Assembly: GCF_002968285.2 (NCBI RefSeq)
Contig: NZ_CP134400.1
Span: 1,302,001 to 1,366,000 of the forward strand
Reading direction: 5' to 3'
Length of the DNA: 64,000 bases
DNA from: Mycobacterium sp. ITM-2016-00318
Lineage (GTDB): Bacteria; Actinomycetota; Actinomycetes; Mycobacteriales; Mycobacteriaceae
How positions within the stretch are numbered: the stretch's first letter is position 1; each line of letters opens with the position of its first letter. Shown piece after piece: positions 2,284 through 15,124 of the stretch. The notes below the pieces were generated by a model that did not search any database, had not been told where the DNA came from, and worked only from the letters and a program-made list of their open reading frames with translations. The position numbers and the translations under genes were made by a program.

Positions 2284-2443
2284 GGCTCGCGGACAACGAC
2301 GTCGTGCTCGATGACGGCGACCGAGTCCGAATCTGTGAACACGAATTCGTATCCGAGATGGATTGACCGCGGCGATGACCTGCAAGGCACCTTTTGGGGC
2401 GAACGAGCCCGCCTCAGCGACGCACCTAGGGCAGGCTGGAGCA

Positions 2444-4111
2444 ATGACGGAAGCCACCGACCTCGTCGATGTGGTCACCGCTCTGGGCGAAGTACTGGGC
2501 CGGACGTCGTTCCCGCTGCCTACGCCGTCGGCCTGGTCGGCCGAACGTGAAGCTCGCGAGCTGACCGGGCAGCTGGCCGACTACCTCGTTCCGCGGCTGC
2601 GGAGCATCGACGCCCCGCTGCTGGCGGTGGTGGGCGGCTCAACTGGCGCGGGGAAGTCGACGCTGGTCAACTCGCTGGTCGGCGCTGACGTCAGCCCCGC
2701 CGGCGTGCTGCGGCCCACGACCCGCGGCCCTGCAATCGTGTGCCACCCGTCAGACCTGAGGTGGTTCACCGACGACCGGATTCTGCCGCAACTACCGCGA
2801 TCGTCCGGGCCGGACGGCCTGCGCCTGGTGCCGCACGAAGGTATCGGGCCCGGTCTCGCGTTGCTCGACGCCCCCGACATCGACAGCGTCGTGAGTACCA
2901 ACCGCGAGTTGGCGTCCACTCTGCTGGCCGCGGCCGACCTGTGGATCTTCCTGACGACCGCGGCCCGGTACGCCGATGCGGTGCCGTGGCAGTTGCTTCA
3001 CACCGCCCGCGACCGGGGCACCGCGATCGCGATCGTGCTGAATCGATGCCCGCCGGAGGCGGTAAGAGATGTGGCCGCGCACTTGTCCGACATGCTGGCA
3101 GCGAACGGATTGGGCAGCGCACCGCTGTTCGTGATCGCCGAGCAGGGCCTGCGCGCCGGGCGGTTGCGGGACAAGGCGACAACACCCATTCGCTCATGGC
3201 TGGACGGTCTGACCGCTGACGCTGAGCAACGGGTGGCGGTGGTGCGTTACACGCTGGACGGAGCGCTGCGCAGCCTGTCGCCCCGGACGTATGGACTGGC
3301 CGAGGCGGCCGACGATCAATTCGCGGTGCGCTCGCAACTGGAGTCGTGCGTGTCGTCGGCGTACGGCGACGCACTCGCGCGCGTGGACGATGCGGTTCGC
3401 GACGGCACGCTGCTGCGCGGCGAGGTGCTGGCCCGGTGGCAGGACGTGGTCGGTACGGGCGAGTTTCTGCGCAAGCTGGAATCGCGGGTGGGGCGGGTTC
3501 GGGACCGCGTGGTGGCGGCGGTCACGGGGCGGTCCACACCGGTGGAGGAACTCGGGGAGGCGTTGGAGACAGGCATCGCGACCGTCGTCCGGGCGGCAGT
3601 AGAAGAGGCCGCCGAGGTGACATACGGGTGTTGGGCGCGACACCAGGCCGGCGCGCCGCTGCTGACCGGCGACCTGGCGCGGCCGGCCCCCGGGCTCGAT
3701 GAGGCCGTCGAGCGGCTCGTCCGCGACTGGGAGGAATTCGTGCTCGAGCTGGTCCGCACCGAAGGCGCGTCGAAGCGCTCGGGGGCGCGGTTGGCTTCGT
3801 ACGGTGTCAACGGCGCCGGGCTGGTCGTGATGCTCGCGGTCTTCAGCCAGACGGCCGGACTGACCGGCGCCGAGATCGCGGTCGCAGGGGGAACGACGGT
3901 CGCCAGTCAGAAAGTGCTGGAAGCGATCTTCGGCGAACAAGCGGTTCGCGGCCTGGCCCGGCAGGCCCGCGAGGAACTGCTGGCTCGAGTCGACGGCCTC
4001 CTGCGCCACGACGCCGCCCGCTACGGCGAAGTGCTGGGTTCCGCGTCGGCACTGGTGTCGGGTGACGAGCTGCGGGCGGCCGCCAATCGCGTCGCGGCGG
4101 TGCTGCAGTGA
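2444..4111 (+). CDS. dynamin-like GTPase, first of a coupled pair
   Basis: 555-aa P-loop GTPase. Walker A GGSTGAGKST lies near residue 64, a switch-II-like LLDAPDID near 140 and a G4-like LNRCP near 198; the last is weak against the NKxD consensus. A long alpha-helical C-terminal half follows, with one hydrophobic patch (GAGLVVMLAVFSQ) near residue 450. The layout matches actinobacterial 'dynamin family/YfjP-like' GTPases, thought to act at membranes. The ATG at 2444 (GGAG 5 nt upstream) is preferred over an in-frame ATG at 2363, because the extra 27 residues look non-native. Its stop overlaps the next start by 4 nt, as expected for two halves of one complex. Cellular role unknown. Confidence 0.85.
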   Translation: MTEATDLVDVVTALGEVLGRTSFPLPTPSAWSAEREARELTGQLADYLVPRLRSIDAPLLAVVGGSTGAGKSTLVNSLVGADVSPAGVLRPTTRGPAIVCHPSDLRWFTDDRILPQLPRSSGPDGLRLVPHEGIGPGLALLDAPDIDSVVSTNRELASTLLAAADLWIFLTTAARYADAVPWQLLHTARDRGTAIAIVLNRCPPEAVRDVAAHLSDMLAANGLGSAPLFVIAEQGLRAGRLRDKATTPIRSWLDGLTADAEQRVAVVRYTLDGALRSLSPRTYGLAEAADDQFAVRSQLESCVSSAYGDALARVDDAVRDGTLLRGEVLARWQDVVGTGEFLRKLESRVGRVRDRVVAAVTGRSTPVEELGEALETGIATVVRAAVEEAAEVTYGCWARHQAGAPLLTGDLARPAPGLDEAVERLVRDWEEFVLELVRTEGASKRSGARLASYGVNGAGLVVMLAVFSQTAGLTGAEIAVAGGTTVASQKVLEAIFGEQAVRGLARQAREELLARVDGLLRHDAARYGEVLGSASALVSGDELRAAANRVAAVLQ

Positions 4112-5742
4112 CGCTCGTCGACCGGCTGGCGGCGCTGTCGTCGGTAGTGACACTGGGGTCCGGTCGGCTCTCCGATGATGTCCTTGCCGAGCTGCGCGAT
4201 CTGGACCAGCGGGCGGGCAGCCGACTGCGCTTGTCGGGTGAGTACACCGTCGTCGCGCTGGCCGGAGCGACGGGCAGCGGAAAGTCCTCGCTGTTCAACG
4301 CCGCCGCCGGAGCGCAGCTGGCCGCAGTGGGCGTTCGACGGCCGACCACCTCCGATACCCAAGCGGTTGTCTTCGGCCGCGACGGCGCGACGGAACTACT
4401 GGACTGGCTGGAGATCAAGACCCGGCAACACGGTGACGCGTCAGCTGCACCGGAGCTTTCCGGGTTGGTGCTGCTCGACCTGCCTGACCACGACTCCACC
4501 GAATTGTCGCATCGGGCTGAAGTGGATCGGCTGGTCCGCCTCGTCGACGCCTTCATCTGGGTGTTGGACCCGCAGAAGTACGCCGACGCAGTCCTTCACG
4601 ACGACTACTTGCGCCCGCTGGCCGCACACCGTGACGTGATGATCGTCGCCCTCAACCAGTCAGACCGGCTGGCCGATCCCGACCTGGCTGCGTGTCTACG
4701 AGACCTGACCCGGCTGCTTGGCGAAGACGGGCTGGGCGGCGTGCCTGTCCTCGCGACGTCAGCGGTGACACCGGACGGGGCGGCGCCGTTACGTGAATTC
4801 CTTGCGGCGACCGTGGCCGACCACAAGGCGCGAACGGCACGGGTGAGCGCAGATCTGGACTCGACGGCTGCACGCCTCGCACCGCTGGTTCCGCAGCAGA
4901 GATCCGTACCCGGGCTGCGAGACGGCGAGCGACGCCTGCAAACCGCCCTCGCCGAGGCTGCGGGCATTCCCGCAGTAGTCGGTGCCGTCGGCCGCGCTTA
5001 CGAGCGACGCGGTCTCGCGGCGGTTGGCTGGCCGCCGCTGCGGTGGATACATCATCTGCGACCGGACCCTTTGCGCCGCTTAGGATTAGGGCAGTCAAGC
5101 ACCGGGGACGAAGTACTCCGCCGGACCTCGTTGCCCTCGGCTTCTGCGGTCTCGCGCGCGGGCGTGGACAGCGCCGTGCGCTCACTCGCCGACACCGCGT
5201 CGGGCGGGTTACCGGCACCCTGGCCGCGGCTACTTCTCGAAGCCGCCAAGTCACGAGTGGGTGCCGTGCCTGATGCCTTGGACCGGGCGGTCGGTGGCGC
5301 GGACCTCGGCTCGAATCGGCCACCGCGATGGTGGCGTCTGGCGGGGGCGGTTCAGTGGGTGCTGCTGGTGGCTGCCCTTGCGGGCGGCGTGTGGCTCGGG
5401 CTGCTCGCTGTGCTCGCGTATCTGCAGATCGATCTCGATGCACCCCTTCTTGGGCCGTTCTCCTGGCCGACAGTGCTGCTGGTCGGAGGACTCGCGTCGG
5501 GCTTGGCGCTGCGAATTCTGATCAGACCATTCGTCGCGTTCGGCGCGTCCCGGCGCAGGCGACGCGCGAAAGCCGAACTGGGCCGGCGGGTCGAGGCGGT
5601 CGGAGAGGAGTTCGTCCTATCGCCGCTACGGGCGGAGCTGTCCGTGTACGACGAGCTGGCCGCCGCGGTCCACCGGCTCCATGGTCGCGGTTCATCAGGC
5701 CAGAGCTCACCTATAACACATACGGCGGCTGACCAGCGGTGA
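4108..5742 (+). CDS. dynamin-like/YfjP-family GTPase with two TM helices, second of the pair
   Basis: 544-aa GTPase. Walker A GATGSGKSS is near residue 53, switch II LLDLPDHDST near 121 and G4 LNQSDRL near 181 (NxxD preserved, unlike its partner). Two transmembrane helices at about 410-470 (VQWVLLVAALAGGVWLGLLA and a second one) would anchor it in the cytoplasmic membrane, followed by a basic RRRRRAKAELGRR stretch. It overlaps both neighbours by 4 nt (4108-4111 and 5739-5742), so GTPase 1, GTPase 2 and cyclase 1 are likely one translational unit. The pair probably forms a heterodimer; this is inference from conserved adjacency in actinobacteria. Confidence 0.87.
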   Translation: MTLVDRLAALSSVVTLGSGRLSDDVLAELRDLDQRAGSRLRLSGEYTVVALAGATGSGKSSLFNAAAGAQLAAVGVRRPTTSDTQAVVFGRDGATELLDWLEIKTRQHGDASAAPELSGLVLLDLPDHDSTELSHRAEVDRLVRLVDAFIWVLDPQKYADAVLHDDYLRPLAAHRDVMIVALNQSDRLADPDLAACLRDLTRLLGEDGLGGVPVLATSAVTPDGAAPLREFLAATVADHKARTARVSADLDSTAARLAPLVPQQRSVPGLRDGERRLQTALAEAAGIPAVVGAVGRAYERRGLAAVGWPPLRWIHHLRPDPLRRLGLGQSSTGDEVLRRTSLPSASAVSRAGVDSAVRSLADTASGGLPAPWPRLLLEAAKSRVGAVPDALDRAVGGADLGSNRPPRWWRLAGAVQWVLLVAALAGGVWLGLLAVLAYLQIDLDAPLLGPFSWPTVLLVGGLASGLALRILIRPFVAFGASRRRRRAKAELGRRVEAVGEEFVLSPLRAELSVYDELAAAVHRLHGRGSSGQSSPITHTAADQR

Positions 5743-5750
5743 CACGATAC
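5729..5750. repeat. 22-bp repeat spanning the GTPase-2 stop and cyclase-1 start (copy 1)
   Basis: These 22 bases contain the last codons of GTPase 2 (ADQR-stop) and the first codons of cyclase 1 (GTG ACA CGA TAC). The identical 22 bases recur at 10495-10516 just before cyclase 2, where no GTPase gene is present. The second copy is therefore a fragment of the GTPase-2 3' end carried along by duplication. Confidence 0.85.
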
Positions 5751-8700
5751 ACGGGCCCGCCGTGTGCGTCGTGCGGCACTTGGTTGTCCCGCACAGCCAA
5801 GTTCTGCAGTGAATGCGGTACGCCAGTGGCAGACGGCGCACAGTCGGCGGAGTACAAGCAGGTAACGGTGCTGTTCGCCGACGTGGTGCATTCGATGGAC
5901 ATCGCCGCGGCGGTCGGGGCCGAGCGGCTGCGCGAGATCATGGCCGAATTGGTCGAACGTTCGACGGTTGTCGTGAAGCGCTACGGAGGGACGGTGAATC
6001 AGTTCACCGGCGACGGCATCATGGCGATATACGGTGCACCGGCGGCTCTGGAGGACCACGCTTTTCGTGCCTGCCTGGCGGCGTTGGCCATTCAAGAGGT
6101 GGCGAAGCCACTTGCGGCCGACGTCCGGGAACGCGACGGGAAGAACTTGCGGCTGCGCGTCGGACTCAACTCGGGGCGGGTGATCGCCGGTGAGATCGGT
6201 TCCGGCGCTTTGGGTTACACCACCATCGGCGAGCAGGTGGGGATGGCCCAGCGCATGGAGTCCGTCGCCCCTCCGGGTGGGGTGATGCTCAGTGAGTCAA
6301 CCGCGCGGCTCGTCGAGCACGCCGCGATGCTTGCGCAGCCGGAGATGGTGCAGATCAAAGGCGGCGCGGAAGCTGTTCGCGCTCGTCGGCTCCTCGGCGT
6401 GGCCTTGCAGCATGAGATAAGCGGTGCCGCGGAGGCTGCACTGGTGGGACGCGACCTCGAGGTCACCACCATCGCAGGACTTTTGGATCGGTCGGGGACC
6501 GGTCGCGGATGCGTGGTGTGTGTCGCGGGACCGGCGGGGATCGGCAAGACCCGACTCGTTCGCGAGACGATGCGGCTGGCGACCAGCCGGGGTGTCGAGG
6601 CGTTCTCGACCTATTGCGAATCCCACGCCACGGACATCGCGTTTCATTCGGTGGCCCGCCTGCTCCGTGCCGCTACCGGGGTGAGCGGTCTGAACGATGA
6701 GGATGCGCGCGCACGCCTCCGCGCCCAAGCTGTCGACGCCGACGACGAGGACCTGGTGCTGCTGCACGATCTGCTGGGTATCTCCGACCCGGACGTGGCC
6801 TTGCCGAAACTCGACCCGGACGCGCGGCGGCGGCGATTGACCGCGTTGATCAACTCGCTGTCACTGGCGCGTACCGAGCCGGCGCTGTATGTCATCGAAG
6901 ATGCACACTGGATCGACGAAGTCAGCGAATCGATGTTCGCCGAATTCCTCAGCGTGATTCCGCAGACGCCAGCGGTGGTGTTGATCACCTACCGGCCCGA
7001 ATACCTGGGGGCGTTGGCCCAGGTGAAGGGTGCACAGACCATTTCGCTGGCACCACTGAGTGATTCGGAAACAGCCGTGCTGCTCGACGAGCTGCTCGGA
7101 CCCGACCCATCTGTCCTTGGGCTCAGGGCAGTGGTTGCCGAGCGCGCCGCCGGTAATCCGTTTTTCGCCCAGGAGATGGTGCGCGAACTCGCCGAGCGCG
7201 GTGTGCTTCAAGGCGACCGCGGTCGTTACACCTGCCAAGCGGACGTGGCCGAAATCACTGTTCCGGCAACGCTGCAGGCGACGATCGCCGCCCGTATCGA
7301 CCGCCTTGACCCCGACGCCAAGCAGACATTGAATGCCGCCGCCGTGATCGGTTCCCGCTTCACGCCCGGGCTACTGAACGCCCTCGGAAACGATCCCGCT
7401 GTGGGGAAGCTCCTGACGGCCGAGCTGGTCGACCAGATCCGATTCATGCCCAGCGCTGAGTTCGCCTTCCGCCATCCACTGATCCGGACGGTCGCCTACG
7501 AATCGCAGCTGAAGTCCGACCGCGCAGAATTGCATCGTCGGCTGGCTGGAGCGATCCAACAGCGTGACCCCGCTTCCCTGGACGAGAATGCTGCGCTGAT
7601 CGCCGAACACCTGGAAGCCGCGCGTGATCTGGTGGCCGCATTCGACTGGCATATGAGAGCCGGCGCGTGGTCGTATATCCGCGACGTCGCCGCAGCGAGG
7701 TTGAGTTGGGAACGTGCGCGCCGGGTCGCGGATGCGTTGCCTCACGACCACTTCGCTCGCCTGTCCATGCGAATCGCCCCGCGGACGCTGCTATCCGGCA
7801 GCTCCTGGCGAGTGGGCAGCGGCGTCGACACCGGCTTCGACGAGCTGCGCGACCTCTGCGTCGAAGCCGGGGACCAGCGGTCGTTGGCCATCGGCATGAC
7901 GGGTCTGGTGATGAAGGAATTCATGAACGGGCACACCGGCGACGGATCTCGGCTCGCCACCGAACACAGCGCGCTGCTCGAATCGATCCGCGACCCGGCG
8001 TTGGCGGTCGGGTTGTCGTTCGCGGCGCTTGCCGTAAAGCACGAGGCCGGCGCCATGACCGAAGTGTTGCGGCTGGCGGAGCGGGTCATCGAACTGGCCG
8101 GCGGCGACTCCACCATGGGCAGCGTGGTTTTCGGATCCCCGTTGTCGGGCGCGATCGTTTTCCGCGGGTGCGCGCGGTGGTGCCTCGGCCAACCTGGATG
8201 GAAGGAAGATCTTGCGCATTGTGTGGCGATGGCGCGCGCAACCGACGCAACGTCCCTGGCCGGCGTGACCCTCTACAAGTACGTTCTCGCGATTCCGTGC
8301 GGAGCATTGTTGCCCGATGCCAACGCCCTGCGGGAGACCGCCGACGCGTTGACCACCGCGGAGCGGTCGGGCGACGGATTCGCGCTGCTTTTCGCTCAAA
8401 TGGCTCGAGGTATCACGCTGGTCCACGGGGATGGGTTGGACCGCGAGGCTGGGTTCGCCCTGCTTGCGGCGGCTCGAGAGGCCGCCCTGAGGGGGCGTTT
8501 CACATTGACGGCGGTCCCGCCCATTGACCTGCTTTCCGCAAAGGAGGAGGCCGGCTCCGGAGATCTCGATGGTGCAGTCGAAAGGACGCGGTCAGTGGCC
8601 GAGTACCTGTTCAGCTCGGGAAACGTCTGGAGCATCTTCGCCACCACCTGCCTGGTGGAGATGCTGTTGCGCCGCGGCGGGGATGCCGACATCGAGGACG

Positions 8701-8900
8701 CGCAGGCCGCGATCGACCGGTTGGCTGCCCAGCCATTCGGTCTCGCGCTCAACGAGATCACGCTGTTGCGGCTGCGGACGCTGCTGGCGCATGCGCATGG
8801 CGACGAGGCGACCTACCACGACTATCGCGGCCGTTACCGTGAAATGGCGACTGCCCTGGGCTTCGACGGACATATGAAGTGGGCCGAGGCGATGGCGTGA
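5739..8900 (+). CDS. zinc ribbon - class III cyclase-fold - STAND ATPase protein 1
   Basis: 1053 aa, starting at a GTG that overlaps the GTPase-2 stop. A zinc ribbon (CASCG...CSECG, residues about 9-28) is followed by a class III nucleotide-cyclase domain (about 38-200). Both metal aspartates remain (LFADVV and TGDGIMA). The substrate-lysine position is Gln (NQFTGD), and the transition-state Asn of the VNxAxR motif is Gly (GEQVGMAQRM). An AAA/STAND ATPase follows, with Walker A GPAGIGKTR near 264 and Walker B VIEDAHWID near 384. The remainder is a long helical TPR-like repeat region without a LuxR domain. It resembles the mycobacterial Rv0891c/Rv1358-type regulators. It probably senses a ligand and oligomerises; cyclase activity is doubtful. 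Confidence 0.85.
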   Translation: MTRYTGPPCASCGTWLSRTAKFCSECGTPVADGAQSAEYKQVTVLFADVVHSMDIAAAVGAERLREIMAELVERSTVVVKRYGGTVNQFTGDGIMAIYGAPAALEDHAFRACLAALAIQEVAKPLAADVRERDGKNLRLRVGLNSGRVIAGEIGSGALGYTTIGEQVGMAQRMESVAPPGGVMLSESTARLVEHAAMLAQPEMVQIKGGAEAVRARRLLGVALQHEISGAAEAALVGRDLEVTTIAGLLDRSGTGRGCVVCVAGPAGIGKTRLVRETMRLATSRGVEAFSTYCESHATDIAFHSVARLLRAATGVSGLNDEDARARLRAQAVDADDEDLVLLHDLLGISDPDVALPKLDPDARRRRLTALINSLSLARTEPALYVIEDAHWIDEVSESMFAEFLSVIPQTPAVVLITYRPEYLGALAQVKGAQTISLAPLSDSETAVLLDELLGPDPSVLGLRAVVAERAAGNPFFAQEMVRELAERGVLQGDRGRYTCQADVAEITVPATLQATIAARIDRLDPDAKQTLNAAAVIGSRFTPGLLNALGNDPAVGKLLTAELVDQIRFMPSAEFAFRHPLIRTVAYESQLKSDRAELHRRLAGAIQQRDPASLDENAALIAEHLEAARDLVAAFDWHMRAGAWSYIRDVAAARLSWERARRVADALPHDHFARLSMRIAPRTLLSGSSWRVGSGVDTGFDELRDLCVEAGDQRSLAIGMTGLVMKEFMNGHTGDGSRLATEHSALLESIRDPALAVGLSFAALAVKHEAGAMTEVLRLAERVIELAGGDSTMGSVVFGSPLSGAIVFRGCARWCLGQPGWKEDLAHCVAMARATDATSLAGVTLYKYVLAIPCGALLPDANALRETADALTTAERSGDGFALLFAQMARGITLVHGDGLDREAGFALLAAAREAALRGRFTLTAVPPIDLLSAKEEAGSGDLDGAVERTRSVAEYLFSSGNVWSIFATTCLVEMLLRRGGDADIEDAQAAIDRLAAQPFGLALNEITLLRLRTLLAHAHGDEATYHDYRGRYREMATALGFDGHMKWAEAMA

Positions 8901-9030
8901 TGTGATCACCGCGTCGGCCGCCGTGGCTCAGCATGTCTGGCGTGGAACAGCAGACAGGCCTGACAGGCGTGCCCTGCCACCCGACGCCAAGAGTTTGCTG
9001 GCCTCGTCCGAATGGATAGGAAACCGGCGG

Positions 9031-9076
9031 TTGACGAGCTAAGATCGCGTTCTAGGCCGATCGCGTTGTATGCGAT
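9031..9076 (+). promoter_or_regulatory. repeat-rich upstream site of the DUF2652 gene
   Basis: TTGACG (9031-9036) could be a -35 element, with a poor -10 (TAGGCC, 9053-9058). GATCGCGTT occurs twice, at 9043-9051 and 9059-9067, 16 nt apart. The second copy also begins an inverted repeat ATCGC-N7-GCGAT (9060-9076) that ends just before the GAGGTGG ribosome site. The arrangement suits a repressor operator overlapping the transcription start, but no regulator is identified. Confidence 0.35.
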
Positions 9077-9085
9077 AGAGGTGGC

Positions 9086-10288
9086 ATGAAAACGATCGCT
9101 ACGTTAACGAACAGGCGCGACGACTACGGGGTCCACGAGGGCTATCTGCTTCTCGCCGACATCTCGGGATATACCGCGTTCCTCACTGGCACCGAGCTGG
9201 AGCACGCGCACGAGATCATTCATGAACTGACCACGCTCATCCGTGAGCGCCTCGCGCCTCCCATGCGGTTTGTGAAGCTGGAAGGCGACGCTGTCTTCTG
9301 CCACGCGGACACAGAGACGTTTCGGGAAGGTGAGCGGCTGGTCGAGCTGATCGAGGCCTGCTACTTCGAATTCTCCAACCGCTTGCTCGACATGACGCGC
9401 GCAACGACTTGCCGCTGCGTGGCCTGCGCGGCCATCGGTTCGCTTGGGCTGAAGTTCGTATCGCATTACGGCAGCTATGTGGTCGAGCGTGACGACCGAC
9501 GCGAAGACCTCGCCGGACCGGACGTCATCTTGGCGCATCGGCTGCTGAAGAACACGATCAGCGACCACGACGGACCGCCGGCATACGCGTTCTTCACGCA
9601 CGCGTGTCAGCAGCATCTACCTCCGTCGTTCGAACTGCCGTCACATATAGAGATGTACGAGTCGTTCGGCGAAACCAAAGGCGGTGTGCATGATCTCGAT
9701 CCGGTCCTGAGCAGGATGCGGGAGGAGCGCCGCTTGTACATCAGCGCTTCCGACGCGGACTTCGAGATCCCGATCGATGTGCCGGTGCCACCGGCGGTCG
9801 CCTGGCAATACGTCGTTGATCCAATCGAACGACAGCGCTGGGCCTGCCGGCGGTACAACGAGGATCCAGACCAAGATGAGCGGAACCCAGAAGGTCGCCT
9901 CGGGCCTGGCGCGACGTCGCACTGCACCCACGGCCCTGGGCATCTCATGGCCTTCCGCGAGTTCATCGACTGGCGTCCCTTCGCTTACTTCACGTCCCGC
10001 GTGACAACGACGGTGGCCGGAGGTCTGCCCCGGTCTCTTATCGAGACGGTCGAATTCATTCCCCTGGGTGATCACCGCACACGGATCATCATTCGCTATC
10101 GGGCGACGAATCGGTCCCGCATGTCGCTGCTGGTGGGCCGCGCCACACGTGCGTTGGTCACCGGGTTGTGGCAGCGGAGGGGCAGCGACCTGGTCAGCAT
10201 CGTCGAGGAAGATGTCGCAGCGCTTCGGCTCGGCGGCAGAGGCGATCCACAACCGCGTGAAGCGCGTACACCAACGACTTGGCGCTGA
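9086..10288 (+). CDS. DUF2652 - SRPBCC fusion protein
   Basis: 400 aa. Residues about 18-200 match the DUF2652 family: GYLLLADISGYTAFLTGTEL, then FVKLEGDAVFCHA. These two motifs parallel the metal-binding FADxxG/FT and GDA loops of class III cyclases, so the domain probably shares that fold. Residues about 230-375 form an SRPBCC ligand-binding domain (PVPPAVAWQYVVDPIERQRW onward). A cysteine pair (TCRCVACAAIG) lies near residue 105. It has its own upstream region and lies between the two cyclase-STAND paralogues. No function is established; a link to nucleotide sensing is inference from domain and neighbourhood. Confidence 0.72.
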   Translation: MKTIATLTNRRDDYGVHEGYLLLADISGYTAFLTGTELEHAHEIIHELTTLIRERLAPPMRFVKLEGDAVFCHADTETFREGERLVELIEACYFEFSNRLLDMTRATTCRCVACAAIGSLGLKFVSHYGSYVVERDDRREDLAGPDVILAHRLLKNTISDHDGPPAYAFFTHACQQHLPPSFELPSHIEMYESFGETKGGVHDLDPVLSRMREERRLYISASDADFEIPIDVPVPPAVAWQYVVDPIERQRWACRRYNEDPDQDERNPEGRLGPGATSHCTHGPGHLMAFREFIDWRPFAYFTSRVTTTVAGGLPRSLIETVEFIPLGDHRTRIIIRYRATNRSRMSLLVGRATRALVTGLWQRRGSDLVSIVEEDVAALRLGGRGDPQPREARTPTTWR

Positions 10289-10345
10289 TCCGGAGCTCCT
10301 CAAGCGACCGCGCCGAATACCCGCCGGCACGGCGGCACTCGGGCG

Positions 10346-10434
10346 TCAAGCAGTCGGTCGCCAGAAGCCCTGAAAACCCTGACCTGCGTTCGTGGTTCGG
10401 ATCGACGACAGCTGTACCGGATCCCCCGCCTCAG
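10346..10434 (-). pseudogene. duplicated 3' tail of the NlpC/P60 gene
   Basis: The minus strand encodes the last 28 residues of the NlpC/P60 protein found intact at 13740-14834 ([10 protein letters not shown]...GFWRPTA-stop). The amino-acid identity is complete, yet nine codons differ, all at synonymous third positions. Upstream of the GAG codon the match stops abruptly. It is a truncated relic left downstream of cyclase 1. The synonymous-only differences suggest that it derived from a gene copy that stayed under selection after divergence. Confidence 0.85.
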
Positions 10435-10485
10435 CCAGTGATCAATAGGGGTGCAGGCGAGAACAGCGTCCCGAGTGCAATTTGG

Positions 10486-10497
10486 CAGACATGTCTG
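10486..10497. promoter_or_regulatory. perfect 12-bp palindrome before cyclase 2
   Basis: CAGACATGTCTG is a perfect palindrome ending 23 nt before the GTG start of cyclase 2. It lies at the duplication junction. It could be an operator for the newly placed gene, or chance; no regulator can be named. Confidence 0.3.
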
Positions 10498-10516
10498 ACC
10501 AGCGGTGACACGATAC
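10495..10516. repeat. 22-bp repeat, copy 2 (GTPase-2 tail fragment)
   Basis: Exact copy of 5729-5750. Here the ancestral GTG start is followed by ACA CGA TAC TGA, so it is immediately terminated, and cyclase 2 must begin at the GTG five bases downstream of the repeat (10521). This marks one edge of the tandem duplication. Confidence 0.85.
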
Positions 10517-10520
10517 TGAC

Positions 10521-13500
10521 GTGGAAGCCGGTCGGGACGCCCGCGATGATGGCCTGACAGCGGCGCAAGTGCCGTGCGGCTCGTGCGGGACTTATCTGGC
10601 CGCGGCGGCGAAGTTCTGTAGTGAGTGCGGCGCGCCCGTAGCAAATGCCATCCCCTTGGCGGAGTACAAGCAGGTGACGGTGCTATTCGCCGATGTGGTG
10701 CATTCCATGGAAATTGCCGCCGCTGTGGGTGCCGAGCGGCTGCGGGAGATCATGGCCGACCTGGTTGATCGTGCCGCCGCAGTGGTCACGCGTTATGGCG
10801 GGACGGTCGGTAGCTTCACCGGCGACGGGATCATGGCGGTGTTCGGCGCGCCCGCAGCTTTGGAGGACCACGCTGTTCGTGCCTGCCTGGCGGCATTGGC
10901 CATCCAGCAGGAGGCGGAACCGCTCGCCGTCGAAGCCCACGATCGAGACGGTATCGAACTCAAGTTGCGTGTCGGGTTGAACTCTGGAGAGGTGATCGCG
11001 GGCGAGGTCGGCTCGGGGTCTTTCGGATACACCGCTGTTGGTGAGCAGGTCGGGATGGCTCAACGGATGGAGTCGGTGGCACCGCCGGGAGGTGTGATGC
11101 TCAGTGCGTCAACAGCGCGACTCGTCGCAGGGGCTGTCGATCTCAGTGAGCCTGAGATGGTCTCGGTCAAGGGCAGTGCAGAACCGGTGCGGGCGCAACG
11201 CTTGCTTGCAGTCACCTCGGAGCGCCAGCGGGCTCTGTCTACGCAGTCGACGCTCGTCGGGCGCGAGCTGGAATTGCACACTATGACTGGCCTTCTCGAG
11301 CGTGCGATGAGTGGGCGGGGGGTGGTCGTCGGCGTGGTGGGGCCGCCGGGCATCGGAAAGAGTCGGCTTCTGCGCGAGATCACGGCTATCGCCGAAAGTC
11401 GGGGCGTCACGGTGATTTTGAGCAATTGCGAGTCCCATGGCGCGCAGGTCCCGTTCCATGCGGTCGCGCAAATGATGCGCAAAACGTTCCGAGTGTCTGG
11501 TCTCGACGGTGGCGACGCAAGGGTTCGATTGCGGCAGCAGCGTCCAGACATTGACCCCGATGATCTGTTGCTGTGGGAAGACCTCTTGGGCATCGCCGAT
11601 CCGAGCGCCACGCTGCCTCGGATAGACCCAGACGCAAGGCGGCGGCGACTGGCCGCGTTGATTAACACCGCGAATCTGCGTCGCACGCATCCGGCGTTGT
11701 ACATCTTGGAGGACGTGCACTGGATAGATGAGGCCAGCGAGTCGATGATGGCCGACGTCCTCGCTGTGATCGGTCAGACATACACGATGTCTGTGTCCAC
11801 TTACCGGTCCGAATATCAGGGCGCGCTGACCCGCGTACATGGCGCGCACACGATCGCGCTGACCCCGCTGACGGATTCCGAGACCTCTGGGCTGCTCGGG
11901 GAACTGCTCGGTCCCGACCCGTCGGTCGGCGACGTGGCCGCCACAGTAGTGTCGCGAGTGGGCGGTAATCCATTCTTCGCCGAGGAAATGGTCCGCGAGC
12001 TAGCCCAGAGCGGACAGCTGGACGGCGAGCGCGGCGGATACATATGTCAGACCGATGTTGCCGACGTGACGGTGCCCGCCACGGTGCAGGCGACCATCGG
12101 AGCCCGCATAGACCGCCTCAACCCGGTGGCGAAGCGCACCCTGAGTGCGGCGGCAGTGATCGGATTGCGTTTCAGCGCGGACCTTCTCACTATGTTGGCC
12201 GCCGACGCCGCCGTCGAGGAGCTCGTGGCGGCTGAACTCATCGACCAGGTGAGGTTCACCCAGGACGCGGAGTATGCGTTCCATCATCCGCTGATACGCG
12301 CGGTGGCTTACGAGTCCCAGCTGAAGTCAGACCGCGCCGAGTGGCACCGACGGGTGGCTGCTGTGATCGAAACACGCGAACCGGACGCAGCTGGGGATCA
12401 TGCCGCGCTCATCGCCGAGCATCTCGAAGCCGCAGGCGAACTCCGGGAAGCCTACGGCTGGCATATGCGCGCAGGGAGCTGGTCGACCAGACGCGACATC
12501 GCCGCGTCGCGAACGAGTTGGGAGCGCGCGCGACGGATCGCCGATGCGTTGCCGGACAACGAGCCCGAATGCACCACCATGCGAATTGGCCCGCGCGTCA
12601 GGCTGTGTGGTAGTGCCTGGCGGGGAGGTCTGTCGAACGTTGCAGGACTCGTCGAGGAGCTCCGCGAGTTGTGCGCGCGGGTGGATGACCATGCCTCACT
12701 CGCGGTCGGCATCACCGCGTTGACATTTCAGCTCGGCGCAGACGGACATCTGCGCGAGGCTTTCCAGCTTGCGTCCGAACAGTTGACGATATTCGAATCC
12801 GTCGAAGATCCGACGACGGCCATCGGCGCCGCCGCCGCGGCAGCCTCCGTATTGCACCAATCCGGTCAAGCGATGAAGGTGTTGCGATGGTCGCAGTCCG
12901 TGATCGATTGGGCGGGTGAAAATTCCGGTGAACGCGATGACAGGATCTCGAGATCGCCGTTGATCGCACTAGCGTGGGTCTTTCGCGGTATGGCTCGGTG
13001 GTATCTTGGCCGTCACGGCTGGCGGCAAGATCTAGACGATGCGGGTGCGATGGCCCCGAAAGCCGATCCGGTCACTCATCCCTCTGTCGTCGGGTGGAGG
13101 TACCTTGACGCGATTTCCCACGGCGTACTTAGAGCAGACGGCGAATCGGTGCGTGAACTGGAGGGCGCGCTGCGAATTGCCGAGGCATCGGGCGAGGACA
13201 CGTCTGTCGGAAACCTCAAGTACGCGCTGGGTCGGGCACTCGTAGAGCGGGATTCTTTAGCGGAGCGGGAGCGCGGAATGGCGATGTTGGGCGAGATTCG
13301 CGACATGTGTCTCAACCACGGGTTCTTTCGGATCAGAGTGCCCGTCTTGGACTTCTGCGCGGCACGTGAACGAGCCCGCGTCGGTGACTTCGACGACTCC
13401 ATTCCGGTGATGCGGCGCGTTACCGACGGCCTACTGCGGGATGGCCAGGTACTGCAAGGTGTTTGGATCTTGGCGAGATTGGCGGAAACGATGCTCGGAC

Positions 13501-13733
13501 GCGGCTCCGACACGGATATCGCCGACGTGCAGGACGTGGTCGAGAGTATGGCGAACTTGGCGGACGAGGTTGGTGGCGCGATCCGTGACATTTGGTTGTT
13601 GCGTTTGCGGACACTTCTCGCCCTGGCTCGCGGCGACCAGATCGGCTACCGGGATTACCGGGACCGCTACCGGGCGATGGCAGCGTCCTTGGGTTTTGAG
13701 GGCCACATGGATTGGGCTGGAGTTATGGCATAG
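10521..13733 (+). CDS. zinc ribbon - class III cyclase-fold - STAND ATPase protein 2
   Basis: 1070-aa paralogue of the 5739-8900 protein with the same order of parts. It has a zinc ribbon (CGSCG...CSECG), a cyclase domain (LFADVV, TGDGIMAVFG, GEQVGMAQRM), an ATPase with Walker A GPPGIGKSR and Walker B ILEDVHWID, and a helical repeat C-terminus. The substrate-lysine position is Ser (VGSFTGD) and the transition-state Asn is again Gly. The N-terminal half is very similar to copy 1, while the C-terminal repeats have diverged, as expected if the two sense different ligands. It starts at GTG 10521 because the ancestral start is closed by a stop. It is followed after 6 nt by the convergent NlpC gene. 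Confidence 0.85.
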   Translation: MEAGRDARDDGLTAAQVPCGSCGTYLAAAAKFCSECGAPVANAIPLAEYKQVTVLFADVVHSMEIAAAVGAERLREIMADLVDRAAAVVTRYGGTVGSFTGDGIMAVFGAPAALEDHAVRACLAALAIQQEAEPLAVEAHDRDGIELKLRVGLNSGEVIAGEVGSGSFGYTAVGEQVGMAQRMESVAPPGGVMLSASTARLVAGAVDLSEPEMVSVKGSAEPVRAQRLLAVTSERQRALSTQSTLVGRELELHTMTGLLERAMSGRGVVVGVVGPPGIGKSRLLREITAIAESRGVTVILSNCESHGAQVPFHAVAQMMRKTFRVSGLDGGDARVRLRQQRPDIDPDDLLLWEDLLGIADPSATLPRIDPDARRRRLAALINTANLRRTHPALYILEDVHWIDEASESMMADVLAVIGQTYTMSVSTYRSEYQGALTRVHGAHTIALTPLTDSETSGLLGELLGPDPSVGDVAATVVSRVGGNPFFAEEMVRELAQSGQLDGERGGYICQTDVADVTVPATVQATIGARIDRLNPVAKRTLSAAAVIGLRFSADLLTMLAADAAVEELVAAELIDQVRFTQDAEYAFHHPLIRAVAYESQLKSDRAEWHRRVAAVIETREPDAAGDHAALIAEHLEAAGELREAYGWHMRAGSWSTRRDIAASRTSWERARRIADALPDNEPECTTMRIGPRVRLCGSAWRGGLSNVAGLVEELRELCARVDDHASLAVGITALTFQLGADGHLREAFQLASEQLTIFESVEDPTTAIGAAAAAASVLHQSGQAMKVLRWSQSVIDWAGENSGERDDRISRSPLIALAWVFRGMARWYLGRHGWRQDLDDAGAMAPKADPVTHPSVVGWRYLDAISHGVLRADGESVRELEGALRIAEASGEDTSVGNLKYALGRALVERDSLAERERGMAMLGEIRDMCLNHGFFRIRVPVLDFCAARERARVGDFDDSIPVMRRVTDGLLRDGQVLQGVWILARLAETMLGRGSDTDIADVQDVVESMANLADEVGGAIRDIWLLRLRTLLALARGDQIGYRDYRDRYRAMAASLGFEGHMDWAGVMA

Positions 13734-13739
13734 AGGGGC

Positions 13740-14834
13740 TCAAGCGGTGGGCCGCCAGAAGCCCTGAAAACCCTGGCCCGCGTTCGTTGTCCGGATCGAC
13801 GACAGCTGCACCGGATCACCCGCCTCGATCATCTGGCCATTGCCGACGACCATCGCCACATGTCCGTCCCACACTGCGAGGTCACCGGGTCGCAGCGCGT
13901 TCTGGTTCACCGCCGCGCCGAGATCCTGTTCCTGAGCCAGGCGCGGGAGGTCCAGCCCGGCCTGGTGGTATGCCCACTGGGTCAGTCCGCTGCAGTCCAG
14001 TCCGACGCCGGGTGTGGTGCCGCCCCACACGTACGGGACGCCAAGCTGGGTCAGTGCGTGGCGAACGGCGTTGGCCGCCACCGGGTTCGGTGCGCTCACC
14101 GTGCTACCGTCCGGCAGGGTGACCGCAATGCCGTCGCCGAACTCTGCGGGCTCGGGCAGCGCGAGGCCCGCGAGCGAGGCCTCGGTCGGCGCGAGGCCGC
14201 CGGACGCTCCTGAGCCACCCGATGTACCAACGCCACCGGAAGTACCGAAGCCGCCGGGCGCACCCGAACCCGCGGGAGCGTCGAAGCCTGCCGACGGCGT
14301 GTAGCCGGCCGGTGTCGTCGGCGCGCCTGCCGGTGTCGTCGGCGTCGAGATGCCTGCGGCGTTCCCGTCGAGCTCGGTGCGCAGATCGTCGACGACGGCG
14401 ACCGCCTCACCGAGTGCCCGGCGGGCCTCCTCCCGTAGCTCTTCGGCGGCTCCCGGTTCATCGAGTCGCGCCTCGATGGCGGCCGCTCGCGCTTCGAAGC
14501 GATCGACGATGTCGCGAAGCCGAAAGCGGGCGCGCGCCACTGCATCCGCGGCATCGGCGGCGCCTGCCCGCAACTCCTCGATGCGCAGCGACAGCCGGTC
14601 GGCCGCGTCGGCGATCGTGGACATGAACTCGGCCGCGCCGTCCGCGCCCGCACCCGACCAGTCCTCAGCGGCTCGGCTCCAGCCGCCGCGCGTCGCCGCG
14701 GCGACATCGGCCAGCAGTTCGCGCACCTCGGCGAGCGAGGAGACCGGATCCCCCTGGTCCGCCCACCCCGGCCCAACCGACGCCGCCACCTCGCGAATCG
14801 GCGCCGCAAGCGCTGCGATCAGCCCGCTCGGCAT
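13740..14834 (-). CDS. NlpC/P60 peptidoglycan endopeptidase with WXG-like N-terminal domain
   Basis: 364 aa. Residues 1-150 are a helical bundle containing a W-x-G turn ([14 protein letters not shown], about 60-70), like WXG100-type export partners. A Gly/Pro/Ala/Ser linker runs from about 155 to 235. The C-terminal 120 residues are an NlpC/P60 domain with [20 protein letters not shown] (catalytic Cys near 281) and WDGHVAMVV (catalytic His near 325). No Sec signal peptide is visible. The start lies 2 nt after the stop of the EspC-like gene, so the two are coupled. It is probably secreted by a type VII system with that partner and cuts peptide stems in the cell wall. Confidence 0.85.
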
Positions 14835-14836
14835 CG

Positions 14837-15124
14837 TCAGAGGAGACGGCTGCCGCGTCGGTCGGCGTCGGTGTACGCGTCGGCCACCACGCCCGTGCGC
14901 GACCGCGCCGAAGCCAGCTCCTCGGCGAGGAACGCAATGGCACGCGTCTCCGCAGCGATCGCGTCGACGAGCGTGTCGAGGAACCGGGCGCCGACCGGAC
15001 CGAAGGCGGCGACGGTGTCGGCACCAGGCATCGACTTCAGGGCATCGGCGGCATGGGACAGGTCATCGGCTTGATTCGAGCAGTGCGCCCCGAGCGCATG
15101 AATGGCATTCGTATCGACAAGCAT
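14837..15124 (-). CDS. EspC-like (DUF2580) type VII secretion target
   Basis: 95-aa helical protein beginning [21 protein letters not shown] central turn ([13 protein letters not shown]) separates two helices. The C-terminus carries Y-T-D-A-D ([13 protein letters not shown]), a match to the YxxxD type VII export signal. Size, helix-turn-helix form and position two nucleotides upstream of a WXG-like hydrolase fit an ESX secretion-associated partner. No Shine-Dalgarno is obvious before this ATG, so the start is less certain than the frame. Confidence 0.75.

Follow-up and report, generated by a model that had tools for sequence, protein, structure and literature searches.

The 3′ end of a mycobacterial NlpC/P60 gene as a probable insertion hot spot, with a putative fossil attR between two cyclase–STAND genes

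Prophages with serine integrases are known to disrupt open reading frames (ORFs) in mycobacteria (parts of PMC8092301 and PMC10654092), and serine-recombinase islands elsewhere gather at the 3′ end of one gene. In the portions of the sources used here, the Dehalococcoides ssrA islands (DsiB/DsiA) lie in tandem downstream of one gene and are bounded by copies of its 3′ end (PMC3146451), while the staphylococcal and enterococcal cassette chromosomes (SCC and ECC; CcrAB) at rlmH combine large serine recombinases (LSRs), the 3′ end of a protein gene and variable cargo (PMC6222049). These SCC and ssrA islands appear to be the known kind closest to the locus described here. It lies in a stretch of 64,000 nucleotides (‘the window’), positions 1,302,001–1,366,000 of the 5.46-Mb chromosome of Mycobacterium sp. 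ITM-2016-00318 (NZ_CP134400.1), in which two cyclase–STAND genes, cyc1 and cyc2, are found between a pair of GTPase genes, GTP1 and GTP2, and an NlpC/P60 gene for a cell-wall enzyme (NlpC). A first-pass annotation had read the cyclase genes as a tandem duplication with scars of both flanking genes. From sequence comparisons, we consider it likely, and hold with good confidence, that the NlpC 3′ end is an insertion hot spot and that 10346–10457 is a fossil attR, not a tandem-duplication scar.

The NlpC relic and its foreign half-site

The relic of the last 28 NlpC codons that the annotation described is a true NlpC tail, part of a 92-nt repeat (10341–10432 and 13735–13826; 88% identical), and the intact NlpC gene beyond cyc2 was confirmed. 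The nine codon differences between relic and functional tail are indeed all synonymous (19 codons identical, 9 synonymous, 0 non-synonymous over 28); with 27–29% of random changes expected to be synonymous under neutrality, nine synonymous and no other changes would arise by chance at about 1e-5 (synonymous fraction 0.27–0.29). Purifying selection upholds the earlier suggestion that the parent of the relic was functional after divergence, and therefore either the relic or the present tail derives from a relative. The junction, previously placed anywhere in 10435–10494, is not arbitrary, as the relic is adjoined at 10433–10457 by a conserved recombinase half-site, CCTGCACCCCTATTGATCACTGGCT on the minus strand.

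Extra tails were found in other mycobacteria, to which all named relatives belong. With the 30-residue NlpC tail as query against 297 genomes of the genus (E ≤ 0.01), 127 contained the tail and eight of these had at least one further copy (G000, G028, G033, G054, G123, G171, G185 and G270). All extra tails are on the NlpC strand, downstream and within 20 kb, and start at tail residue 2–7; four are in G054, and the one in G171 matches weakly (E 0.004). In G163 and G257, a tail was found without a full NlpC match, and the only tail in G114 lies 17 kb from an NlpC whose match ends at residue 340. Between NlpC and the copies lie genes for an Ig/cadherin-repeat protein and a zinc dehydrogenase (G033), MMPL, glycosyl hydrolase 15, dehydrogenase, alpha/beta hydrolase and cyclase proteins (G054), a TetR regulator (G270), the GTPase pair (M. 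manitobense) or cyclases (G123).

Loci with NlpC or its tail were compared in 121 genomes: the window’s own, 79 from a first draw and 41 from a second draw of 396 genomes that overlaps with the first. First-draw loci were picked by NlpC similarity plus extra tails and are enriched for fossils; the second-draw loci are 40 with an intact NlpC, of ≤16 kb each and some shorter or on short contigs, plus G350. Fossils with the half-site occur in 10 of the 121 genomes, including the window’s, and a broken NlpC in two; the G257 fossil stands at a contig end without NlpC. Synonymous and non-synonymous differences between relic and functional tail numbered 4/1 in L127, 12/2 in L086, 8/3 in L109 (two relics), 8/7 in L131, 4/4 in L094 and 3/4 in L123. 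Decay in place thus accounts for some relics, whereas the two window tails diverged while functional, in separate lineages. Of all tails in the comparison, that nearest to the relic is its own genome’s in L094, L127 and L123; for the window relic, its own functional tail ties with that of M. manitobense, and L086r1, L109r2 and L131r4 are exceptions. At L154 (5894–5955), a longer second piece of the NlpC 3′ end extends upstream of the crossover and has no half-site; it is seemingly a different, ordinary duplication.

Two genomes carry what the fossils appear to have lost. In G114, NlpC is cut at codon 337 and followed directly by a 488-aa LSR (Resolvase, Recombinase and Zn_ribbon_recom domains): the gene reads ...CAGATGATCGAAGC, then foreign DNA encoding the LSR; the last letters of the island are ...CCCAGTTGAAGC, and the native NlpC tail comes directly after them, 17 kb from the cut. 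G350, from the second draw, is cut at the same place by an element whose LSR is 92% identical to that of G114, and its native tail lies 45 kb from the cut and 20 bp from the GTP2 stop. The attL sites of both carry the mirror image of the attR half-site, the inverted half-site AATANNGGTGCA (reverse complement TGCACCNNTATT), to which the window flank TGCACCCCTATT is alike; attL and attR share the core GARGC. The G350 P arm is GGAACCGTTATT and the reverse complement of its P′ arm TGCACCCTTATT; G114 is arranged likewise, with a weaker left arm. By arm symmetry, the attP centre would be the GA of the core, with arms of 23–25 bp, the half-site size given in the part of PMC3783163 used, and the crossover GA of the window attB would fall at 13826–13825. 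An LSR at the junction, a single cut codon, a short core, inverted-repeat arms and, in the window, a half-site at the crossover are what an LSR attachment site should show, and the site, its half-site and the fossils can be read directly from the sequences.

Both intact islands, in G114 and G350 (L126 and L217), encode a TIR-domain protein, which PADLOC matches to TIR-TM in L126 (2.7e-41), beside type I restriction–modification genes; the NlpC site thus hosts defence-like cargo. In each, a second, weak match to the recombinase N-terminus (L126 5373–5801 and L217 5456–5869; 27–29% over ~155 aa) could represent a small serine recombinase comparable to DsiA or CcrA.

The half-site was sought by consensus, profile and exact pattern. 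A consensus scan (≤4 substitutions, loci then compared) gave 13 rows, with the window site counted twice: 11 fall at the listed NlpC-tail fossils, L148 is a further fossil by profile and L143 resembles chance; two matches arose in 1.8 Mb of mononucleotide-shuffled control sequence. The profile, trained on ten fossils including the window’s, separates functional tails (model start 20–31) from fossils with a half-site (model start 3–16). It also matched L088, L006/L123, L148 and the third L109 copy outside its training set and, among 43 later loci, only L217, the G350 attR; the second L086 copy and L154, with its longer copied piece, are repeats without a half-site. In a leave-one-out test with a 22-bp matrix, the window half-site ranked first of 127,958 window positions, and when 15 arms were left out in turn, eight (the window’s included) left the window site as the sole position scoring as high. 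The exact pattern with 8–13 spacer bases occurs in 27 of the 297 genomes; with an 11-base spacer, it occurs only in G000, G054 and G270, all NlpC fossils. At G149:C5:181270, G206:C1:3454685 and G223:C1:4317553, the pattern with a 10-base spacer lies on the NlpC strand in identical sequence, perhaps a conserved gene. The right-arm motif near other NlpC genes was tried and discarded: only the G114 attL matched without substitution, the other rows (1–2 substitutions) were mostly one conserved coding sequence or the left arm reversed, and the shuffled control gave 22 matches in 2.5 Mb of strand.

Table 1. Features of the NlpC slot in the window
Feature	Positions	Strand	Basis
GTP1, dynamin-like GTPase	2363–4111	+	Pfam Dynamin_N 1.5e-9
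GTP2, GTPase, own last codons and stop lost at ~5690	4108–5742	+	Comparison with relatives’ ends
Putative junction of GTP2 and cyc1 module	5691–5728	none	Comparison with L123 and L217
22-mer, conserved upstream/start element of cyclase–STAND genes	5729–5750	+	Five own-genome copies
cyc1, 1053 aa: weak zinc ribbon, class III nucleotide cyclase, AAA_16 STAND-type ATPase	5739–8900	+	Pfam
DUF2652 protein, 400 aa, same module as cyc1	9086–10288	+	Pfam PF10851 3.8e-22
NlpC relic, last 28 codons and stop; attB-derived half of the probable fossil attR	10346–10432	-	Repeat and tail comparisons
GAGGC core (GARGC common to attL and attR of intact elements)	10428–10432	-	Junction comparison
attP-type half-site, element-derived half of the probable fossil attR	10433–10457	-	Motif scan, profile, leave-one-out rank
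22-mer upstream of cyc2	10495–10516	+	Exact repeat, own-genome copies
cyc2, cyclase–STAND, 1070 aa	10521–13733	+	Pfam
Intact NlpC/P60 gene, 364 aa	13740–14834	-	Pfam NLPC_P60 3.4e-20
Putative intact attB within NlpC (approximate extent)	13806–13846	-	NlpC cut position in G114 and G350

Two separately acquired cyclase–STAND genes

The exact 22-bp repeat at the two cyclase genes is real; its interpretation as a scar of the GTP2 end is not borne out. At ≤3 mismatches, it occurs at five places in the genome (two exact, three with 3 mismatches), each at or just upstream of a cyclase–STAND start, and the reversed pattern, used as a control, gave no match there. A block like ...CAGCGGTGACACGATAYTGAC-GTG stands upstream of cyclase–STAND genes in this genome and in other species, visible by eye in ~9 of 20 starts compared though not in all. 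On these comparisons, the 22-mer is an upstream or start element of the cyclase–STAND family, not a GTPase tail. GTP2 ends within it because its own end was lost: relatives end in HRLR, HRLNR or QRLSR followed by the stop, whereas the window GTP2 continues past ...HRL into other DNA. The start of cyc2 had been thought to have moved to 10521. In most relatives with the block, the start GTG comes right after ...GATAYTGAC, as it does at 10521; therefore, the cyc2 start probably did not move, and cyc1 is the deviant.

The two cyclase genes share 63% of nucleotides (1976/3132) and 56% of residues, and three paralogs in the same genome outscore cyc1 against cyc2 (55–57% identity). In a tree of 22 proteins, from which the truncated row L161 was omitted, cyc2 pairs with a G123 cyclase (Shimodaira–Hasegawa-like approximate likelihood ratio test, 100) and cyc1 is placed elsewhere. 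A forced cyc1–cyc2 clade was rejected in both halves by approximately unbiased (AU) tests run on quick trees (p = 0.018 for the N half and 7.9e-6 for the C half). The sequences thus record two genes acquired separately, not tandem duplicates. Sliding windows over cyc2 hinted at shifts of nearest relative; a mosaic cyc2, with its 3′ part from a donor and its 5′ part from an element, was considered and dropped, as the same clades were not rejected in half-gene tests.

By Pfam, the cyc1 zinc ribbon scores under the cut-off. The cyclase–STAND proteins look like sensor ATPases with cyclic-nucleotide output. The Pycsar anti-phage system consists of a PycC-type cyclase and a PycTM or PycTIR effector. 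PycC models do match the cyclase domain here (best 1.3e-17), which may hold for class III cyclase domains in general, and among the window proteins scanned we found no Pycsar effector family and no specific system by PADLOC.

Other cyclase–STAND genes were observed beside possible target sites. Degraded pieces lie directly downstream of NlpC at L200 (1394–1931) and L209 (15638–15876), both by tblastn, and at L109 (4063–5220) by eye, which suggests repeated gain and loss in the NlpC slot. Elsewhere in the window’s genome, at C1:4,643,000–4,659,000 (L166), a paralog begins within ~150 bp of a degenerate tRNA (9883–9942; Rfam 29.6 bits against a gathering threshold of 29), by eye the 3′ half of a tRNA-Lys; elements that target tRNA genes may thus also carry this family. 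On the 3′ side of the same paralog, L003 has GAAGCCAGATGCGAATAGAGGTGCC (1462–1490) just beyond the gene end; it differs by one substitution from the right-arm (attL) motif of the NlpC element, possibly by chance. At C1:2,674,000–2,691,000 (L168), a 30-bp direct repeat (6770–6799 and 14087–14117) flanks another cyclase–STAND gene; it resembles a tRNA 3′ end, with one copy 274 bp from the matched gene, and neither Rfam nor ARAGORN called a tRNA there. A third paralog, at C1:372,000–390,000 (L167), has an intact tRNA-Gly(ccc) on one side and a partial copy of that tRNA on the other (2535–2574 and 14975–15048; 83% over 41 bases).

How the slot may have been filled

We propose that a family of mycobacterial LSR elements uses the NlpC/P60 3′ end as its chromosomal attB. 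The fossil attR would then hold the NlpC half-site and gene tail on one side (10346–10432) and the attP half-site of the element on the other (10433–10457). The slot between the gene at 362–844 and NlpC, which we read as at least three modules, would have been filled stepwise by GTP1–GTP2, DUF2652–cyc1 and then cyc2 beside NlpC. GTP1–GTP2 also lies near NlpC in M. manitobense (L006/L123), L114, L202 and L205; GTP2 is 19–20 bp from NlpC or the native tail in M. manitobense and G350, and M. manitobense has a fossil beyond GTP1. With GTP2 beside NlpC in relatives and that fossil beyond GTP1, the pair may be an old module, and is probably the oldest of the slot. DUF2652–cyc1 and cyc2 would have arrived between GTP2 and NlpC. 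The annotation had suggested looking in relatives for a single-copy order of GTP2, cyclase and NlpC. GTP2 does face NlpC, without a cyclase, in M. manitobense L006/L123, in G040 (L114) and in G350, where NlpC is broken, and to this extent the earlier reading is borne out. The NlpC tail found 19–20 bp past GTP2 in two relatives (L123 and L217) is missing at that place in the window; the junction at ~5690 appears to have deleted this older tail and its half-site. The fossil between DUF2652 and cyc2 would thus persist, while the one expected between cyc1 and GTP2 would have gone together with the GTP2 stop. This order of arrival, and the fossil having once bounded an LSR element, are what we infer from the arrangement. 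A small EspC-like ESX gene lies directly upstream of NlpC (14837–15121; Pfam PF10824, 7.2e-5).

Since NlpC is intact again, a further step is needed. Our first choice, somewhat less likely than not and outside the confidence placed in the hot spot and the fossil attR, is that an LSR element broke NlpC, and that recombination with the NlpC and neighbouring DNA of a relative rebuilt the gene and left the far end of the element, the attR, behind. This would explain the foreign tail and the absent recombinase, but it needs elements with a cyclase at the far end.

Several results weigh against this account, both the hot spot and the repair. Elements with a far-end cyclase were not found: the P-end genes of both intact elements are not cyclases. 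NlpC remains broken in both, so that the intact gene of the window requires the additional step, and cyc2 shows no convincing mosaic of the kind that repair through a crossover in the cyclase might leave. In the window’s genome, no LSR of this group was found (no match at 1e-15; of 16 initial candidates, 5 were scored), and tblastn with the G114 LSR at 1e-5, which a more distant recombinase would escape, found no relative in 80 first-draw loci except G114’s own. No fossil stands beside an intact NlpC in the 40 second-draw genomes, some on short contigs. In the leave-one-out series, five of 15 arms were weaker, since between 5 and 116 window positions scored equally well, and two (L131 and L129) failed, being out of register through small indels. 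Matches of the exact pattern with other spacers number 24, from 24 genomes, and three lie 12–15 kb downstream of NlpC. Apart from these points, only the G350 recombinase among later loci is related to the G114 LSR. The phage relatives of this LSR (431 records, all <60% identity, best 49.7% in Gordonia phages) and plasmid relatives (40 records, best 33%) include none tied to NlpC, and attP as a single pattern had no match in IMG/VR viral contigs.

A possible variant of the fossil-attR reading, about which we are doubtful, is that of SCC-like, gene-restoring cassettes. A circle of NlpC tail, cargo and attP half-site would supply a new tail on insertion and leave the old one as a relic, so that the site is renewed and arrays build up, through some recombinase or by homologous recombination over the ~90-bp tail. 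The units do have two rather fixed ends: the half-site lies 63, 104, 74 and 64 bp from the cyclase start (window, G123 and twice in G054), and the NlpC stop lies 6 bp from the cargo stop in the window (that of cyc2), 19 bp in M. manitobense and 95 bp in G123. G054 has four fossils in a row; in G123, the tail, a terminator-like spacer and the cyclase 3′ end occur on both sides (338/453 columns, 75%); and the ssrA islands and SCC/ECC set a precedent. At L128 (1535–1629 and 5046–5141), each copy has a terminator-like inverted repeat, GCCGAAATGGCATTCC...GGAATGCCATTTCGGC, that separates the NlpC tail from the cyclase stop. Both intact LSR elements, however, lack a tail and break NlpC, and no fossil locus but that of G114 has an LSR relative. 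Such a circle would carry attR and have to recombine with attB; serine integrases do not recombine other site pairings, according to the part of PMC3783163 used. Ccr-type recombinase genes were not found within the cassettes by tblastn with the G114 LSR or among the part of the cassette ORFs that was profiled. The G054 array bears on SCC-like restoration, and so does the presence of an intact NlpC together with a relic that was functional while it diverged; the functional tail may have come with an element or from a relative. Wider still, and in our judgement unlikely, would be a mycobacterial gene-capture platform in which recombinase-less cassettes, often with a cyclase–STAND gene, rebuild NlpC each time and regenerate the site; if true, cassette arrays at NlpC would be distinct from integrons and SCC.

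It is improbable that no site-specific element took part, with homologous or illegitimate recombination inserting an NlpC–cyclase segment of a relative and the half-site likeness being chance or an unrelated conserved element. That all tail differences are synonymous does imply foreign DNA, and the G123 duplication takes in the cyclase end, but two intact LSR islands have the same type of half-site at the same codon, the window half-site takes first rank among window positions, and the relic edges coincide near the crossover in ~10 genomes. The tandem duplication of GTPase tail, cyclase and NlpC tail, though its 22-bp and 92-nt repeats are present, is highly improbable, as the cyclases are not sisters in the AU tests, the 22-mer belongs to the cyclase family, the DUF2652 gene intervenes between cyc1 and the relic in one unit only, and tail copies recur across species with unrelated genes between, a fixed left edge and a foreign half-site.

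Under the favoured reading of a fossil attR at an LSR insertion hot spot, an apparent gene duplication would become a record of mobile-element traffic, which gives a reason for two unrelated cyclase–STAND genes side by side. It would add a protein-coding attB for serine integrases in mycobacteria, with the two intact elements and their enzyme as a candidate integration system, and the half-site joined to a gene tail would be a signature for recognizing lost integrative elements after their recombinase has gone.

Comparison with known islands

The NlpC attB, the arrays beside an intact gene and the cyclase–STAND cargo were new to us; among the papers listed in the literature searches, none named an NlpC attachment site in its title or the opening of its abstract, which does not prove its absence from print. 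Modules without a recombinase that accrete between att-type sites are also familiar from work on integrative and conjugative elements.

The likenesses below hold for the portions of the cited texts used. As in the ssrA islands (PMC3146451), where a conserved 15-bp motif without match to the gene precedes each copy, and where 15 islands have no integration module and others carry the serine recombinase, the copied gene end here adjoins a foreign motif. The ssrA islands differ in using a tmRNA gene and a 20-bp repeat, in place of a protein gene and a ~90-bp (28-codon) tail, and in their recombinase and cargo; here, loci with an intact NlpC and a fossil have no recombinase relative. The cis-mobilizable elements and their accretion (PMC3146451) resemble the window in stacking recombinase-less modules between att-type sites; for the window modules, mobility in trans would be conjecture. 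SCC and ECC (PMC6222049) share direct repeats (~50 bp in ECC) and, in 16 of 32 ECCs, several attR sites. They differ in host, gene and site sequence, and here the gene is disrupted by the intact elements, whose attL and attR have no more than a 5-bp core in common. In that respect G114 and G350 are more like the Int-S prophages of M. abscessus and Bxb1 in groEL1 (PMC8092301), in which LSR integration in an ORF disrupts the gene with a common core of 5–8 bp; that text mentions neither NlpC nor a peptidase, and fossils beside an intact target, as in the window, do not appear in the portion used.

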